64,000 nucleotides of DNA from Edaphobacter aggregans DSM 19364 (lineage in GTDB: Bacteria > Acidobacteriota > Terriglobia > Terriglobales > Acidobacteriaceae), in assembly GCF_000745965.1 (NCBI RefSeq), contig NZ_JQKI01000001.1:124001-188000 (forward strand), in the 5' to 3' direction. The notes under the pieces are model-generated. The model was not told the DNA's origin. It saw only the letters and a program-made list of their open reading frames with translations, and did no database searches. The translations under genes were made by a program, and so were the position numbers. Shown piece by piece: positions 11,475-45,336 of the stretch. The stretch's first letter is position 1, and each line of letters begins with the position of its first letter.

Positions 11475-13184
<1,710 letters not shown>

Positions 13185-13211
13185 CAAACAACATCAACCC
13201 AGAAACACCAG

Positions 13212-13339: not shown

Positions 13340-14764
13340 ATGCGCTTCTATTCCTGTAGAGTCTGGCCAGTGGTTCTTGGTGCCGTGGTATTGTCGCTGA
13401 CCGCGTGCAAACAGCAGACGCCGACGGGCGCAAATGAAGCCGCGAACTCGGCGCGAGCAGCGGCGAAGGACGCCTACCTGTACGGGTATCCCCTGGTGAT
13501 GATGGATGTCACCCGCGCCAAGATGACGAATGTTCCGTCGCCGTCTGGAACCAATGCGCCGGTGGGTCAGTTTGCAAGTGTACGAGCGTTTCCGGACGCC
13601 ACGTTTACCGATGTTGTAAGTCCTAACGCGGACACGTTGTATTCGATAGCGTGGTTGGATCTACAGCAGGAGCCGATTGTGCTGAGCGTTCCGGATACGC
13701 ACGGCCGCTATTACCTGGTGCAGATGGTGGACGGGTGGACGGATGTGTTTGCATCGCCCGGAAAGCGGACTACCGGAACGGCGAAGGCGGATTATGCCGT
13801 CACCGGGCCAGGCTGGTCGGGCACCCTGCCGGCCGGGATGAAGGAGATCAAGTCTCCTACTGCGCTGGTATGGGCTATTGGGCGGACGCAGACGAACGGC
13901 AAGGCCGATTATGCAGCGTGCATACGATTCAGGACGGCTATAAGCTGACTCCACTAAGTGCGTGGGGGAAGCCGTACACTCCGCCGAAGAATGTGCCGGT
14001 TGATCCGAAGCTCGACGCAAAAATCGCGCCGGTGGAATTGGTGGCGGCGATGGATGCGGCGACGTTCTTCAACAGGCTGGCGATGCTGATGAAGGACAAT
14101 CCTCCAGCGGCGGCGGATGGGCCAATGGTAGCGAAGATGGCGAGCATTGGAATCGTGCCGGGGCAGCCGTTTGATCTGAACAAGAACGGAAGCGATGCCG
14201 CAAAGGCGATCTCCGATGGTGTGGATGAGGGGAAGAAGAGAGCGCTGGAGCTGGGTCAAAATCCGGGAATTGGCAAAGCTGAGAACGGATGGATGCTGAT
14301 AACTTCGGTCGTGGGCGACTTTGGCACAAACTACGATGCACGGGCAGGAGTTGCTGTGTTCGGAATAGGCGCCAATCTGGTGGCAGACGCGTTCTATCCG
14401 GTAGCTCGCGTCGATGGTGATGGCCAGCCGCTCAATGGAGCGAACAAGTACGTTGTGCACTTCGACAAGGGGCAGATGCCGCCCGTGAATGCGTTCTGGT
14501 CATTGACGATGTACAACGCCAAGCAGGCTTTTGTGGCGAATCCGATCAACCGCTATGCGATTGGAGACAGGGACAAGCTGAAGTTCAACAAGGATGGTTC
14601 GCTGGATATCTATGTTCAGCATGATTCGCCAGGGGAAGGACAAAGAGTCGAATTGGCTCCCTGCGGACAAGGGCTCGTTCAACGTGGTGATGCGGATGTA
14701 CTGGCCAAAGGAAGCCGCGTTCAATGGGAGCTGGAATCCGCCGCCGATCAAGAAGATGGGTTGA
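13340..14764 (+). pseudogene. DUF1254/DUF1214-type lipoprotein-like gene, two frameshifts
   Basis: A single ~475-residue protein is spread over two changes of frame. The first part starts at ATG 13340, 5 bases after GGAGGGAA. It has a signal peptide with a lipobox-like LSLTACKQ and the DUF1254 motif AYLYGYPLVMMDVTRAKM. At about 13918 one base is missing (GCGTGCAT where GCGGTGCAT restores frame). The middle part holds the DUF1214-like NAFWSLTMYNAK region. At about 14631-14634 one extra G in GGGG shifts frame again; after removal the tail reads NVVMRMYWPKEAAFNGSWNPPPIKKMG and stops at 14764. Either a decayed gene or two sequencing indels. Family proteins are secreted and of unclear function. 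Confidence 0.85.
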
Positions 14765-14770
14765 ACTCTA

Positions 14771-14869
14771 GGCCGGGTGCCCCATTCATGACGCCGGGTG
14801 CGAGGTGCCCCATTCATGATGCAGCCTCATCGCGGGCATGAGTGGGAACATTCGAGCGAAGCCCGAACC
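14771..14869 (+). repeat. Two-hairpin palindromic repeat, copy A (one and a half units)
   Basis: A partial unit (GCCGGGTGCCCCATTCATGA) followed by a complete unit: CCCATTCATGATGCAGCCTC, GGCATGAGTGGG, then TTCGAGCGAAGCCCGAA. It begins 6 bases after the restored stop of the DUF1254 gene. Confidence 0.85.
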
Positions 14870-14899: not shown

Positions 14900-15047
14900 G
14901 CCAGTCCTTCCAGGTCACCCGCGAGCGCATCCGCCAGATCGAAGCCAAAGCCTCTCCGCAAGCTGCGCCACCCCAGCCGCAGCCGCAAGCTAAAGGCGTT
15001 TGTCGACGGAGTCAAAGAGGCCTAACCCAACACCAACGCAGAAACAC
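14900..15047 (+). pseudogene. Duplicated 3' end of rpoD
   Basis: About 148 bases matching 13060-13206 (sigma region 4.2, the stop and ~20 bases of 3' flank) with a one-base insertion (GCCTCTCCGC against GCCCTCCGC) and about ten substitutions. The insertion destroys the reading frame after [13 protein letters not shown]. It is preceded by the palindromic repeat, not by the rest of a sigma gene. With rpoD itself it brackets the DUF1254 gene as imperfect direct repeats. Confidence 0.9.
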
Positions 15048-16692: not shown

Positions 16693-16769
16693 GCCGGGTG
16701 GCCAGGTGCCCCATCCATGCTGCAGCCTCATCGCGGCATGAGTGGGATCATTCGAGCGAAGCTCGAACC
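16693..16769 (+). repeat. Two-hairpin palindromic repeat, copy B
   Basis: CCCCATCCATGCTGCAGCCT ... GGCATGAGTGGGATC, then the second hairpin TTCGAGCGAAGCTCGAA. One base separates it from the stop codon of a minus-strand XRE fragment. Confidence 0.88.
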
Positions 16770-16770
16770 G

Positions 16771-16857
16771 CTAAGCCACAATCTTCAGCCCCTTCTTCTC
16801 CACCAGACTCAGCAGCTTCAGCGAAGCTCCCTGCGGATGCTTCTCTCCGCTCTCCCA
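16771..16857 (-). pseudogene. 3' fragment of XRE antitoxin-like gene, copy 1
   Basis: 28 codons plus stop, reading WESGEKHPQGASLKLLSLVE and ending KKGLKIVA, nearly identical to the C-termini of the fragments at 18794 and 20193. The helix-turn-helix itself is missing: homology ends at the Trp codon. Read towards the palindromic repeat, its stop touches copy B. Confidence 0.85.
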
Positions 16858-16912
16858 CCGAGTTGGGAATATAACCGATGGTTCTGTGTTCTCTCATTGG
16901 GGACATCATCGA

Positions 16913-17284
16913 ATGACAACACTGATGCAGACATCTGCACTCGAAGCAAAAGAAGTTGTGCTAAAGCTTGGGATGGCAATCAATGATGAGAGTTTTGAGC
17001 AGGCCAGAAGATATGTCAGCGATGATATGAAGTACGTCGGTCCCTTTGGCTCCCGCATTGGAGCCGAAGCATATCTTAAGGAAATTGAACATCTTCGTCT
17101 GAAATTCGATATTCAAAGGATCTTTGCTGATGGCGATGATGTATGCGTGATGTATGACATTACCGTGTCAGGTATCACGCTATTTGCCTGCGGCTGGTTT
17201 CAGGTTACGGACGAAAAGGTCAGGTCCCTGAGAGTAACGTTTGACCCTCGGCCTCTTCTTCCTGAATCCGACGCAAGCATATAA
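16913..17284 (+). CDS. SnoaL/NTF2-like small protein
   Basis: 123 residues (TTLMQTSALEAKEVVLKLGM at the start), no signal peptide. The pattern of N-terminal helices, FEQARRYVSDDMKYVGPFGS, then alternating strands (DVCVMYDITVSG, FACGWFQVTDEKVRSLRVTF) matches the NTF2-like/SnoaL fold used by small isomerases, cyclases and ligand-binding proteins. The ATG at 16913 follows GGGGA by about 9 bases. Lone gene between repeats; base composition is less GC-rich than core genes, suggesting acquisition. Specific function unknown. Confidence 0.72.
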   Translation: MTTLMQTSALEAKEVVLKLGMAINDESFEQARRYVSDDMKYVGPFGSRIGAEAYLKEIEHLRLKFDIQRIFADGDDVCVMYDITVSGITLFACGWFQVTDEKVRSLRVTFDPRPLLPESDASI

Positions 17285-17310
17285 ATCGGCCCGCTCGAGC
17301 GCATACTCAC

Positions 17311-17386
17311 GCCGGGTGCCGAGTGCCCCATTCATGACGCAGCCTCATCGCGGCATGAGTGGGATCATTCGAGCGAAGCTCGAACC
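17311..17386 (+). repeat. Two-hairpin palindromic repeat, copy C
   Basis: GCCGGGTGCCGAGTGCCCCA, TTCATGACGCAGCCTCATCG, CGGCATGAGTGGGATC, TTCGAGCGAAGCTCGAA: the most canonical copy. It lies 26 bases after the NTF2-like stop. Confidence 0.9.
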
Positions 17387-17420
17387 GTCTCTCCAACGCT
17401 CCCGCAGCCTTGGAAGCGAA

Positions 17421-17606
17421 TCAGGCTACCTTGGCTCCAACCGGCCGCTCCTTCGAACCCGCGATCCTCGTAAACGCGTTCGTGATCGTCTCCTGCGTGT
17501 TTCGGTTCGAAACATGAAGCATGCGGGTCGTCTTCGACACCGTCTGGCAGAGCTGGTACTTATTCCCAATCGTCTCTTTTGCGCGAAAAATGGCTTCCGA
17601 ACGCAT
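17421..17606 (-). CDS. Small RNA-polymerase-omega-like protein
   Basis: 61 residues starting MRSEAIFRAKETIGNKYQLC and continuing QTVSKTTRMLHVSNRNTQET. The order MRSE-x-IF-A, N-K/R-Y/F-L, SK-TR-LH, R-TQ-T, A-x-x-RI follows the short omega (RpoZ) subunits of acidobacterial and related genomes, as I remember them. The start ATG is 5 bases after GGGAGG, a strong ribosome site. It could be a second, diverged omega or a regulatory mimic. Located alone among repeats. Assignment is tentative. Confidence 0.5.
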   Translation of the reverse strand: MRSEAIFRAKETIGNKYQLCQTVSKTTRMLHVSNRNTQETITNAFTRIAGSKERPVGAKVA

Positions 17607-18219
17607 ACATGCCTCCCGTTCCGTTACGGCGCGTCAGATTGTGGCGTTGATCTGAAGTCGCAGGTGAGCTGCAGCGTCTGAACCGCTCGCAGGCGACCGC
17701 CCGCAAGTCCTGTTCTCATTCAAGTCTATACCTCCTCCGGCAAAACCAGGCGCCGAGCACCTCATTCACGCCACAGCCTCACCACGATTCCGCCTGCCGA
17801 TCTTCCTCACGCAGGCTCTCAAAGCCAGCAGCAGCAACGTCGGCCTGATCGAAGACTTTGCTCAGGCAACCCGCTGATCGGTCTCACCATCAACTTGGCC
17901 TGTGGTTCTCTCCTCGCTTTTCCTGAAACCGGCGAGTAGCACTGAGGCCGGACCCTTTTCATTGAAGCGTTTGCCGACAATCCAGTGATACGAAGACGTG
18001 AATGAAGCAGAGCGTCTCGCACAGGATCGGCCTTTCGGCTCATTTGATTGCGTGGGCGAACGCGATCAACTCGCCGCAGCGCGTGGTGCTGAACATCGGG
18101 CACCGGAACACCTCGAAAGTTAGTGACTCAAATCACCGACAAGCAATTCACACAGGGCTATCGTTCAGGCTGTTGAGAACTACCACGCACGTCAATAGAA
18201 CCGAAAAGAGGATAATTTT
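17607..18219. other. 613-base region without a supported gene
   Basis: Contains a degenerate piece of the palindromic repeat at about 17750-17788 (CGCCGAGCACCTCATTCACG, CCACAGCCTCACCACG) and short open frames on both strands without ribosome sites or recognisable motifs. A short plus-strand stretch at 17808-17880 (QALKASSSNVGLIEDFAQATR) reads like a gene tail but could not be assigned. The last ~40 bases hold the ribosome site of the YciF-like gene. Confidence 0.5.
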
Positions 18220-18723
18220 ATGGCAATCCAAAACCCACAAGAATTCGTCGTCCAGCTACTTAGCAACCTCCGCCAAGGCACAGAGCGGAGCGTAGAATTT
18301 TATCGAGAACTCAGCCAGCTTGCGTGGGAACCAGACGTAAAGGAGGCTCTGGAAGCGCGGGCTTTTATCTCCGAGAAAGTTCTCGCCACCCAGGACCAAT
18401 GTTTCAAACTCATCGGCGAAAGGCCCATGACGGGTAATTCGCGCATCCATGACATCTTTGTAGAGGACTTCCGCAAGGAGGTCGCCGAGATACAAAACCC
18501 GGCCGCAAAACACCTGTTCATCCTGGCAAAGGCCATCCACCTGACTCACCTTCGCATTGCGGAGTACATGGCTTTGGTCGCGACAGCGGATATTACCGGC
18601 CACTATGGCGTCGGCGTACTGCTTGAAAGCTGTTTAGCGGATAACCTTGCGTTTGTTGAACGGACACGGCGCTTGGTCCGGAATGCCGTTGAAACCAGAG
18701 TGGCCACGAGGATGGCCGCCTAG
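18220..18723 (+). CDS. YciF/DUF892-like ferritin-fold stress protein
   Basis: 167 residues, almost all helical: FVVQLLSNLRQGTERSVEFY, then AFISEKVLATQDQCFKLIGE, then ILAKAIHLTHLRIAEYMALV and a last helix LADNLAFVERTRRLVRNAVE. This four-helix pattern and the HLRIAEY-type motif match the YciE/YciF (DUF892) family, induced under osmotic or oxidative stress in other bacteria. Start ATG with GAGGA 7 bases upstream. The palindromic repeat begins on the base after its stop codon. Confidence 0.72.
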   Translation: MAIQNPQEFVVQLLSNLRQGTERSVEFYRELSQLAWEPDVKEALEARAFISEKVLATQDQCFKLIGERPMTGNSRIHDIFVEDFRKEVAEIQNPAAKHLFILAKAIHLTHLRIAEYMALVATADITGHYGVGVLLESCLADNLAFVERTRRLVRNAVETRVATRMAA

Positions 18724-18793
18724 GCAGGGTACCCCATTCATGACGCAGCCTCATCGCGGCATGGGTGGGGTCCTTCGAGCGAAGCTCGAACCC
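18724..18793 (+). repeat. Two-hairpin palindromic repeat, copy D
   Basis: GGTACCCCATTCATGACGCA ... GGCATGGGTGGGGTCC, TTCGAGCGAAGCTCGAA. It fills exactly the gap between the stop of the YciF-like gene (+) and the stop of XRE fragment 2 (-). Confidence 0.9.
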
Positions 18794-19002
18794 CTAAGCC
18801 ACAACCTCCAGCCCCTTCTTCTCCACCAGACTCAGCAGCTTCAGCGAAGCTCCCTGCGGATGCTTCTCCCCGCGCTCCCACTTGCTCACCAGGCTCGGAG
18901 TCACATTCAGATACGCGGCGAAGACCGTCTGGCTCGCCCCTTCGCGATCGCGCAGCGCGCGAATCTTCTTCGGCGTCATCTTCTGGATCGACGTCAGGCA
19001 CA
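18794..19002 (-). pseudogene. XRE antitoxin-like gene fragment, copy 2 (HTH retained)
   Basis: About 67 codons. An N-terminal MTPKKIRALRDREGASQTVF, the recognition region LNVTPSLVSKWERGEKHP and a tail LKLLSLVEKKGLEVVA form a complete helix-turn-helix of the HigA/NadS antitoxin type. Upstream coding (LTSIQK) runs straight into repeat copy E, so the original N-terminus is lost and the 121-codon open frame extending upstream is partly repeat-encoded. No toxin gene is adjacent. It is flanked by same-direction repeats D and E. Confidence 0.8.
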
Positions 19003-19071
19003 GCCGGGTGCCCCATTCATGACGCAGCCTTATCGCGGCATGAGTGGGATCATTCGAGCGAAGTTCGAACC
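19003..19071 (+). repeat. Two-hairpin palindromic repeat, copy E
   Basis: GCCGGGTGCCCCATTCATGA, CGCAGCCTTATCGCGGCATG, AGTGGGATCATTCGAGCGAA, GTTCGAACC. One substitution in the second hairpin compared with copy C. Confidence 0.9.
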
Positions 19072-19106
19072 ACGGAGCCACCCCTCTGACCAGCTTTATG
19101 GGGTCC

Positions 19107-19496
19107 TCACCAATGGTAGGGGTCACTGAAGAAGAGGATGCATAGAGCAAAGAAAACAAAGGTTGCCGCGGCGAGCGCGCAATGTACGATCTTCACCGCC
19201 TTTGGAATTTTCTCGACCCGCAAAATCCCCACTGCCAGCAAAAGCACGATCGCACAAACAATGTAATCAATCCTGGCAAACATCATCATGACGAATACAC
19301 CCGCCAGCCCGGTGACAAGCAAGGGTCCTTCTCCAATGACTGCGGAGATCGTTGCGACACCAACCCATAAGAGCGGTGTCGCGAGAGTCCCAAAGAGAAG
19401 AAGGTTGATACTTGTCCACCACGCTTGCGGCCCGCGATAGAACGCCGTGTATCGGGATTTTGTAAACGGGAGAATCAGCGGCGTCACGAGAACCAC
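19107..19496 (-). CDS. Hypothetical four-helix membrane protein
   Basis: 129 residues if the GTG at 19496 is used. Four hydrophobic segments: INLLLFGTLATPLLWVGVAT, LLVTGLAGVFVMMMFA, IDYIVCAIVLLLAVGIL and ALAAATFVFFALCILFF. The frame stays open upstream (GAAAAAYLVVLV) to the stop of the preceding gene, with no ATG, so a CTG or a coupled start may be used. It follows the secreted gene at 19557-20066 by about 60 bases and is probably cotranscribed. Function unknown. Confidence 0.6.
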   Translation of the reverse strand: MVLVTPLILPFTKSRYTAFYRGPQAWWTSINLLLFGTLATPLLWVGVATISAVIGEGPLLVTGLAGVFVMMMFARIDYIVCAIVLLLAVGILRVEKIPKAVKIVHCALAAATFVFFALCILFFSDPYHW

Positions 19497-19556
19497 AAGG
19501 TAAGCCGCAGCGGCCGCGCCATACCGGTACCGAACCGCTTGTTTGTGCAGTTTCTC

Positions 19557-20066
19557 TTAAACTTTCGCTCTCGCGAGTTCCTGCTGTGAGCGGGCTGCAT
19601 TTTGGCGGGCCGCGATACCGTCCGAGTAGATGGCTTCCACATGCAATGTCCGCAAGTGATGATCGCGTTTGAAGTCGGTGTAATCCAACGTGTAGCTAAG
19701 TCCTTCGTTGTCCTCGTTTCCCCAGGTTCCCGACCATCGGTACTGTGCGCGCGATTTTCCCGGCACATCGGAGCCTGTCTTCCACCATCGGTTCACATCA
19801 GGGGCGCCAGGCTGTTGCTTCCAGCCTTTCTGTTGCAGGTTGGCGCAGATACCGCCAAGTACATATGACGCCGGATACGGCTCTTCGACTGTGTAAATGA
19901 GTTGATGGACCCCACGTGGCCAATCGACATATTGGACTCCTGTTGCATTGGGTGCGACGAGCAGAAAATCGTAATGCTCCGCCCTCCAAAACGTCTGTTG
20001 AGCAAAACCGGCGATGGCCAGCAATACGAATACGCCGAATCCCGTCACAGCGGCGTGTTTTGTCAT
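19557..20066 (-). CDS. Hypothetical secreted protein
   Basis: 169 residues from ATG 20066. Signal peptide HAAVTGFGVFVLLAIAGFAQ. The mature part has strands (YDFLLVAPNATGVQYVDWP, HQLIYTVEEPYPASYVLGGI) and an Arg/Tyr/Trp-rich middle (RWWKTGSDVPG, QYRWSGTWGNEDNEGLSYTL). The frame extends upstream into repeat copy F, which encodes MRLRHEWGAR in that frame; that part is rejected as repeat sequence. No family recognised. Confidence 0.65.
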   Translation of the reverse strand: MTKHAAVTGFGVFVLLAIAGFAQQTFWRAEHYDFLLVAPNATGVQYVDWPRGVHQLIYTVEEPYPASYVLGGICANLQQKGWKQQPGAPDVNRWWKTGSDVPGKSRAQYRWSGTWGNEDNEGLSYTLDYTDFKRDHHLRTLHVEAIYSDGIAARQNAARSQQELARAKV

Positions 20067-20122
20067 TGCGCCATTCTGACGTGGAGCAGTTTGGAGTCCA
20101 AGTTCTTTTTGGAGGATTCCTC

Positions 20123-20191
20123 GCCGGGCGCCCCATTCATGACGCAGCCTCATCGAGGCATGAGTCGGATCATTCGAGCCAAGCTCGAACC
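20123..20191 (+). repeat. Two-hairpin palindromic repeat, copy F
   Basis: GCCGGGCGCCCCATTCATGA ... GAGGCATGAGTCGGATC, TTCGAGCCAAGCTCGAA. It lies two bases from the stop of XRE fragment 3, the same arrangement as copies B and D. Confidence 0.88.
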
Positions 20192-20192
20192 T

Positions 20193-20360
20193 CTAAGCCA
20201 CAATCTCCAGCCCCTTCTTCTCCACCAGACTCAGCAGCTTCAGCGCAGCCCCCTGCGGATGCTTCTCTCCGCGCTCCCACTTGCTCACCAGACTCGGAGT
20301 CACATTCAGATACGCGGCAAAGACCTTCTGGCTCACCCCTTCGCGATCGCGCAGCGCCCG
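20193..20360 (-). pseudogene. XRE antitoxin-like gene fragment, copy 3
   Basis: 55 codons plus stop: RALRDREGVSQKVFAAYLNV, TPSLVSKWERGEKHPQGAAL, KLLSLVEKKGLEIVA. It matches copy 2 from RALRDREG onward and then departs abruptly, so it is truncated within the first helix of the HTH. The longer open frame upstream is unrelated sequence. Confidence 0.82.
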
Positions 20361-20505
20361 CGCGATAACAGATCGACAGCCGTCTCGAAGCCGCATCTCC
20401 CCACCCAGCAGCCACTTACAAAAATCTTCGCGAAAAACAAAGGCAAACTCCGCTGTCAAGCCCGAAAACCACCCAAGCCATTCAAAACAAACAACATCCA
20501 CAGTG

Positions 20506-21461: not shown

Positions 21462-21535
21462 CCGGGCGCCCCACTCATACCGCAGCCATATCGCGGCATG
21501 AGTGGGACCGGGATTATTCAAGCGGAGCTCGAACC
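21462..21535 (+). repeat. Two-hairpin palindromic repeat, copy G (diverged)
   Basis: CCGGGCGCCCCACTCATACC, GCAGCCATATCGCGGCATGA, GTGGGACCGGGATTATTCAA, GCGGAGCTCGAACC: an internal six-base insertion between the hairpins and a weakened second stem. Confidence 0.8.
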
Positions 21536-42822: not shown

Positions 42823-42885
42823 CTTCTTTCTCCAATCTCCTGTGGCGCCTCAGCGCCCATCAGGAACCATCTAGAGATAAGATGG

Positions 42886-42940
42886 TACGTATTGTTGCAT
42901 AGAATATCGTTGATATACCTTATAGTCTCATCAGGACCAC
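42886..42940. promoter_or_regulatory. Duplicated 55-bp control region, copy 1
   Basis: TACGTATTGTTGCATAGAAT, ATCGTTGATATACCTTATAG, TCTCATCAGGACCAC. It differs from the copy at 44054 at four positions and lies 63 bases upstream of the AhpD-like start. An adjoining CCATCT...AGATGG inverted repeat at 42868-42885 may be an operator. Likely regulator site, inferred from conservation. Confidence 0.75.
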
Positions 42941-43933: not shown

Positions 43934-44053
43934 AAGGTCAGTATTCCTCTTATCCACAGACCGTTACCCCTTTGATCATCATGTATTCCCCTTTAGCCTG
44001 ATGTATCCGAAGGCTTCCTCTCTTCTGGAAAAAGAGCCATCCGGATAATATGA

Positions 44054-44108
44054 TACGTATTGTTGTTTAGAGTATCGTTGATATACCTTATAGTCTCATC
44101 AAGACCAC
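44054..44108 (+). promoter_or_regulatory. Duplicated 55-bp control region, copy 2
   Basis: TACGTATTGTTGTTTAGAGT, ATCGTTGATATACCTTATAG, TCTCATCAAGACCAC, ending at the ATG of the AraC-family regulator. TATAGT with a TTTAGA 17 bases upstream is a possible sigma-70 promoter, giving a leaderless or very short leader mRNA. Confidence 0.75.
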
Positions 44109-45028: not shown

Positions 45029-45041
45029 CTCTGGGTACGCC

Positions 45042-45190
45042 AAGCCTTCAGAGGGTGCTGAAAAACCCCGTCCTGCTTTACGGCACGGCTTCAGCCGTGC
45101 CGTAAATCGTCCTGTTATGAATGCGGTTTTAGCCGCTGAGGTCAGGCTTTTTCGCCCGCGAGCACCATTTTCAGCACCCTCTTCAGGCTT
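45042..45190. mobile_element. 149-bp MITE-like element
   Basis: 23-bp terminal inverted repeats: left AAGCCTTCAGAGGGTGCTGA (then AAA), right as its reverse complement with two mismatches (TTTTCAGCACCCTCTTCAGG then CTT). Inside is a perfect hairpin TTTACGGCACGGCT / AGCCGTGCCGTAAA. No coding capacity. A non-autonomous transposable element is the simplest reading; the flanking target duplication is not clear. Confidence 0.7.
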
Positions 45191-45336
45191 GGCGCTCTCA
45201 TCCTCCTCAGCAAAACAATGGGCTTCAGGGTATGCCTTCGGCCTGATCTTCCCAAAAATCCTGTCAAGGGCCCTTCAAGCACGAAAATCCCTGCAAACAC
45301 CTACAAACAAATTGGTTATGTCACTCGGTCCAGTTG

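Follow-up and report, generated by a model that had tools for sequence, protein, structure and literature searches.

How the end of one gene came to stand three times at the same side of a short repeat is the question raised by a stretch of DNA downstream of rpoD in Edaphobacter aggregans DSM 19364. The window (the whole stretch analysed, 64,000 nucleotides) is positions 124001–188000 of contig C1 (NZ_JQKI01000001.1) in an 8.18 Mb draft genome, G000, and the copy number in this assembly (345 contigs, contamination 7.2%) still deserves long-read confirmation. A preliminary description of the window had proposed three 3′ fragments of one XRE antitoxin gene, of 28, about 67 and 55 codons, each with its stop codon 0–2 bases from a repeat (B, D or F) in the same orientation. 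The fragments are indeed there and measure 88, 209 and 168 nt, with a spacing of exactly one base in every case. We think it somewhat better than an even bet that what is left of a dead toxin–antitoxin locus has travelled as a passenger, with recombination or template switching copying it from one resident repeat to another nearby. The repeats resemble repetitive extragenic palindromic (REP) elements, and they and the tails lie as follows.

14772–14794, partial repeat of 23 nt, just ahead of full repeat A
14804–14869, + strand, REP-like repeat A, without a tail, 30 nt before a duplicated rpoD tail
16701–16769, + strand, REP-like repeat B, with two hairpins and with tail copy 1 beside it
16771–16858, − strand, antitoxin tail copy 1, 88 nt, the last part of the gene; orthologue of tail t1 of Edaphobacter modestus
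17318–17386, + strand, REP-like repeat C, without a tail; the E. modestus repeat at the matching place bears a 33-nt tail
18724–18792, + strand, REP-like repeat D, attached to tail copy 2
18794–19002, − strand, tail copy 2 of the antitoxin gene, 209 nt, retaining the HTH_3 domain, its broken end exactly at repeat E
19003–19071, + strand, REP-like repeat E, where tail copy 2 is broken off at its 5′ end
20123–20191, + strand, REP-like repeat F, attached to tail copy 3
20193–20360, − strand, tail copy 3 of the antitoxin gene, 168 nt, with a nearly complete HTH_3 domain
20369–20387, − strand, possible further piece of the antitoxin gene beyond an internal deletion (matching at 17 of 19 nt; suggestive only)
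21462–21535, + strand, REP-like repeat G, in the orientation common to all seven repeats

All three tails come from the 3′ end of a single HTH_3 (XRE) antitoxin gene and are about 95% alike, the pairwise identities being 84/88, 84/88 and 159/168. On the plus strand, where the stop codon reads CTA, a single nucleotide separates it from the last base of the repeat (GAACC-G/C/T-CTAAGCC). The junction GAACC-N-CTAAGC is identical in five of five copies, the three of G000 and two in E. modestus, and so fixed junctions, named in the preliminary description as a check, are what we find in both species. Chance adjacency was rejected on this recurrence. The far, broken ends of the tails are ragged. Copy 2 stops precisely where repeat E starts, in agreement with the earlier remark that a further repeat sits at its truncated end, and at this break the parent gene and repeat E have the bases GC in common. 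Behind copy 3, the 17-of-19-nt match is to the N-terminal coding region of the parental antitoxin; it was equalled by 1 of 500 shuffles with one parent and by 0 of 500 with a second, and gave no signal with a third (452 of 500). This is a hint that copy 3 may carry an internal deletion, with antitoxin sequence resuming behind it. The search for remnants of the antitoxin N-terminus or of a toxin behind copies 1 and 2, in E. modestus and in a further Edaphobacter genome, G079, gave nothing convincing: one E. modestus segment was equalled by 14 of 500 shuffles, and the best toxin match outside genome G065 was a 20-aa stretch at E 0.43.

The parent locus, which the preliminary description had proposed to seek in relatives, is intact in two related Edaphobacter genomes. 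At two loci in G036, and in G005, a 137-aa RelE toxin of family PF06296 is followed by a 118-aa HTH_3 antitoxin, and the tails correspond to the 3′ end of the antitoxin of these type II toxin–antitoxin loci. The PF06296 match has an E value of 3.4e-43 for the one G036 toxin tested; among the NCBIfam models the toxin has no match and the antitoxin only sub-threshold ones, the best being the MqsA-type family model TIGR03830. In G065 the antitoxin frame is open, and the toxin is matched in three pieces with shifted frames. Unlike the loci of G036 and G005, the window has no toxin and no certain antitoxin N-terminus, and is non-functional as such a system. The statement that no complete toxin or antitoxin is present is supported: the toxin has no match at E ≤ 1 across contig C1 (the rest of the genome was not searched for it), and a protein search of the host genome at E up to 10 returns no intact copy of the antitoxin, its seven matches comprising the three tails, three weak ones and, on contig C39, a relative at 54% identity. 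Of the adjacent intact toxin and antitoxin that define a type II system, contig C1 holds antitoxin tails only.

A comparison of copy 2 with the intact genes bears on the history of the gene before it broke. Against the G036 gene L049, 42 of 69 codons differ, 37 synonymously and 5 non-synonymously, and the corresponding counts are 34:6 against L067 and 29:8 against L050; at the protein level, 5 and 6 of 69 residues separate copy 2 from the two G036 genes, and 8 separate it from the G005 gene. Because synonymous changes dominate, the antitoxin gene lineage was under purifying selection until shortly before breakage.

The other partner in the junction is a repeat of about 70 nt, present in seven copies of one orientation between 14.8 and 21.6 kb. 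Repeats B, D and F are 69 nt long and share a two-hairpin design. Folding of five copies as single-stranded DNA gave z-scores of −2.3 to −4.9, with 0, 6, 0, 5 and 4 of 200 shuffles folding as well; both expected hairpins formed in four of the five, hairpin 1 being altered in F. The short palindromes characteristic of REP elements are thus present in the folded copies. The repeat is also dispersed and multicopy, with at least 44 matches in the host genome, partial ones counted, among the best 40 of 84 candidates. A combined repeat-and-tail query matches 37 of 62 Edaphobacter genomes, those in G005, G036 and G065 through the tail alone. No GTAG or CGTC tag stands at the hairpin foot in the repeat sequences inspected. 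Since such a tag is not universal, the Acidobacteria class 3 TnpA-REP elements having atypical structures with a CnGA foot according to PMC6006769, we use the term REP-like.

We considered whether the repeat is a native component of the toxin–antitoxin locus and rejected this, since it has no match at any of 21 loci of intact genes or distant relatives, including the fragments in G003, G007 and G083. These loci span 1.6–20 kb, most of them three to twenty kb and those of 1.6–2.6 kb lying near contig ends; the intact relatives in G036 and G005 were covered in 3.2-kb loci and the G065 locus in 20 kb. The repeat is therefore foreign to the locus from which the tails derive.

The tail DNA was run as a query against 62 Edaphobacter genomes, the host's included, with at most 13 candidates per genome scored. 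Close tails occur in three of them, G000 (three), E. modestus DSM 18101 (G067, contig NZ_SHKW01000001.1; two) and G079 (one), every one downstream of rpoD; none was found away from the rpoD neighbourhood in the host genome or in the 62-genome search. The E. modestus matches are one of 91 nt and one of 34 nt, which includes the final 33 nt of the gene. Weaker matches are the intact or nearly intact genes of G065, G005 and G036 (76–81%) and fragments in G083 (69 nt at 78%, in the HTH part) and in G007 and G003 (weaker, 74%). An exact pattern scan of an 84,980-species collection, from which records of the host genome may be omitted, found the tail core in E. modestus only. Copy 1 and its E. modestus counterpart have the same far junction (GAGTTGGGAATATAACC) and share the SnoaL-like gene that follows (92% over 644 nt), and the repeat beside the counterpart lacks the first hairpin. 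Copy 1 being common to both species, not all copies arose in the host genome. An assembly artefact was rejected because E. modestus has copy 1, both junctions included, at the syntenic position, and three independent toxin–antitoxin insertions were rejected because the tails are so alike and all local. In G079 a diverged repeat of another variety stands 16 bases from the stop codon, and small deletions break the reading frame of the tail. The adjacency would be coincidental, it had been argued, if copies elsewhere showed the tail without the repeat; five of the six close tails keep the identical junction, G079 being the sixth, and the more distant relatives lack the repeat at 21 of 21 loci.

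The preliminary description had gone further and proposed that a unit of repeat plus gene tail was duplicated at least three times. Several copies, a fixed junction and ragged ends are all found, as above; what is not supported is the rigid unit. In pairwise comparisons of B, D and F the repeats differ at 26 of 207 sites and the tails at 17 of 344 (Fisher p = 0.0017, the pairs not being independent), modules vary at apparently equivalent sites, and copy 1 is shared with E. modestus. Mean identity within B, D and F is 0.875, as against 0.902 to the tail-less A, C and E. These results bear on plain segmental duplication, in which the repeat-and-tail block would have been copied by unequal crossing-over between neighbouring repeats, the repeats then diverging faster. 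That all close copies are local and in a single orientation fits such a process, as does the account of Pseudomonas fluorescens SBW25 REPIN clusters as tandem repeats that include flanking sequence in PMC3116915. Against this, B, D and F differ more than the tails and have no common diagnostic changes in the alignment, and their left flanks (300 nt) show no likeness except one 11-nt inverted match; moreover, E. modestus, G072 and G079 hold different modules at an apparently equivalent repeat. We judge segmental duplication unlikely.

The modules themselves were examined in a census of contig C1. It holds 34 repeat matches, 32 of them extending to the right end, where they are followed by the antitoxin tail in 3 cases, by module X in 6, by module Y in 4 and by other DNA in 19, so that a recurring right-hand module is present at 13 of 32. 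X (GCTTCTAGGTACGCC...) and Y (...GCTTAAGGGCACGGC...) are hairpin modules, and 6 of 10 occurrences of X and 4 of 8 of Y adjoin a repeat; the modules start within about 2 nt of the repeat's right end. The tail takes a position that other modules occupy at times, with the register agreeing to about 2 nt. In the other genomes, 36 distinct repeat flanks comprise 2 with the tail, 4 with Y (3 of them from one genome), 1 with X and 29 with other DNA. These flanks come from 16 of 20 other genomes' loci, chosen from earlier matches and not at random, and the G079 tail is left out of the count, its repeat being too diverged to match.

The right-hand module varies among sister species at apparently equivalent repeats. 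Beside a small Gly/Ala-rich gene, which has no Pfam match, the repeat carries a 33-nt tail in E. modestus, a weak Y in G072 and neither in G079. Beside a methyltransferase gene (Methyltransf_11, E 1.8e-24 for the G079 copy), it carries the antitoxin tail in G079 and module Y, with a score of 55, in G072. This comparison suggests that such repeats swap DNA scraps attached to one end. A stronger form of this idea, which we put forward tentatively and rate below an even chance, is that the right-hand end of the repeat is an exchange slot, at which repeats resident throughout the genome swap X, Y or the dead tail by repeat-anchored template switching, the repeat itself remaining untransposed.

These observations are consistent with the following sequence of events. 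The three fragments would be remnants of a dead RelE-type toxin–antitoxin locus that stood downstream of rpoD. In the common ancestor of E. aggregans and E. modestus, the 3′ end of its antitoxin gene would have been joined to a REP-like repeat on that repeat's right side, with a single base between it and the stop codon, and the fused end would then have acted as a passenger module, copied onto other REP-like repeats already resident in this stretch. Copying, by recombination or template switching, would begin in the repeat and end anywhere in the gene tail. A start in the repeat with an arbitrary stop would give a constant junction at the repeat and variable breaks at the far end; the fixed junction, ragged ends, local spread and varying modules together fit repeat-started copying.

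Several points weigh against this explanation. Most repeat flanks from the other genomes (29 of 36) carry none of the three modules, and an intact pair downstream of rpoD was found in no genome searched. If hairpin repeats mutate or convert faster than tails, plain unit duplication may be restored. The G079 junction, with its different repeat variety and wider spacing, may be an independent event. Equivalence of sites across species is apparent from the neighbouring gene and orientation, not from unbroken synteny, and the Y match at the Gly/Ala-rich-gene site in G072 barely exceeds the cut-off (37 versus 34). The last 19–20 bases of the repeats are no marker of the copied tract, because they are common to most copies. 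Finally, distant relatives of the antitoxin also persist in broken form where no repeat is present, so a repeat is not required for breakage itself.

A different mechanism is one-ended transposition, in which a REP-associated Y1 transposase would have moved the repeat with adjacent DNA by misreading the right end, leaving fixed left and ragged right ends. On C1, 32 of 34 copies of the repeat are oriented in accordance with the sign of local GC skew (Fisher p = 5e-7, the copies not being independent), as a strand-biased single-strand mechanism could yield; the link may merely mirror gene strand. GC skew on C1 is large and flips sign along the contig (loci L108–L122 and L152–L167). Two matches to Y1_Tnp (PF01797) in the host genome exceed the cut-off, and the one on contig C19 (L174, 1245–1890) lies between inverted copies of a related repeat in a REPtron-like arrangement. 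However, the C19 transposase is partial (73 of 121 model positions) and is flanked by repeats of a different variety, while the match on contig C83 has no repeat alongside. That no close tail was found outside the rpoD neighbourhood also argues against transposition, which we regard as improbable.

Local copying between repeats, the explanation we prefer, treats the tails as dead. Copies 2 and 3 nevertheless retain much of a DNA-binding domain, which raises the question of whether one of them could still work as an orphan antitoxin or as a DNA-binding protein, its minimal HTH having outlived the toxin. Copy 2 has an open frame with an HTH_3 match at residues 6–50 of 61 (45 of 55 model positions, E 1.8e-9), and copy 3 matches 44 of 55 positions (E 2.1e-10). 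The private changes of copy 2 fall at 2 of 157 sites, none at a site invariant among the parents, and copy 3 has 4, all at such sites, counts too small for significance. Between copies 2 and 3, 5 codons differ synonymously and 4 non-synonymously, copy 1 is without most of the domain, and the frame of the G079 tail is broken. To judge from these sequences, a working orphan is very improbable, and the tails are most likely without present function.

The surroundings of the repeats show further irregularities. The rpoD gene occupies 11475–13184 (sigma-70 regions by Pfam) and is followed by a DUF1254 gene and then by the repeat-rich stretch. The DUF1254 gene (13340–14764) is frameshifted in the window and has an open frame of 474 aa in E. 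modestus. The 3′ end of rpoD is duplicated at 14900–15047, 94% identical to 13060–13208 and beginning 30 nt to the right of repeat A; no second copy is found at the syntenic place in E. modestus. At the place matching 14772–14869, E. modestus has a repeat without its middle, fused to tail t1. A DUF892 gene (18220–18723) has its stop codon abutting repeat D; a search at E ≤ 1e-10 that took in the 61 other Edaphobacter genomes returned no relative, only the gene itself. Farther along the window are a 65-nt direct repeat (42876–42940 and 44044–44108, 91% identical, 1168 bases apart) and, at 45038–45194, an inverted repeat with 27-nt arms that are 93% complementary and spaced 103 nt.

REP sequences have been linked to rearrangement before; a 1990 paper in EMBO J reportedly placed them at the join-points of duplications. 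In stressed (starving) Escherichia coli, PMC3161906 reports that 22 of 90 sequenced novel junctions lay inside REP sequences, 14 of these 22 with homology too short for ordinary recombination, and its authors suggest hairpin formation rather than homology as the cause of the hotspot. The present locus resembles those amplification and template-switch junctions in having breakpoints at REP hairpins with little or no homology opposite. It differs in that the E. coli work is experimental, with segments mostly of kilobases, whereas here the events are read from sequence and the tails span 33 to 209 nt. Clusters of REP and REPIN elements, as described in PMC3116915 (SBW25) and PMC3733652, are likewise made of short clustered hairpin repeats copied with neighbouring DNA, and PMC3733652 speaks of flanking DNA of variable length. 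Unlike in these descriptions, the neighbour here is an identifiable gene end at a fixed one-base junction, the repeat has no GTAG tag, and in related species the modules beside apparently equivalent repeats are different ones. That DNA flanking REP elements can be copied with them is already known; here a traceable dead antitoxin end would be the passenger. In the literature searched, judged by title and the opening of the abstract, no report treats gene tails as exchangeable modules beside REP sequences, which is not to claim that none exists, and nothing addresses the intergenic repeats of Edaphobacter.

A dead gene end makes an ideal tag because, unlike for the repeats, its parent is known, and copying beside repeats can be traced between species. 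For annotation, the locus is a warning that HTH-like open frames next to such repeats can be dead tails. If the right-hand repeat end does serve as an exchange slot, the stretch downstream of rpoD would be a mosaic of genes and scraps partitioned by repeats, and it would offer a testable natural record of hairpin repeats reshuffling bacterial DNA and of the assembly of mosaic repeat elements. The case is a small, clear example, in the soil bacterium Edaphobacter, of bacterial repeats rearranging genomes.

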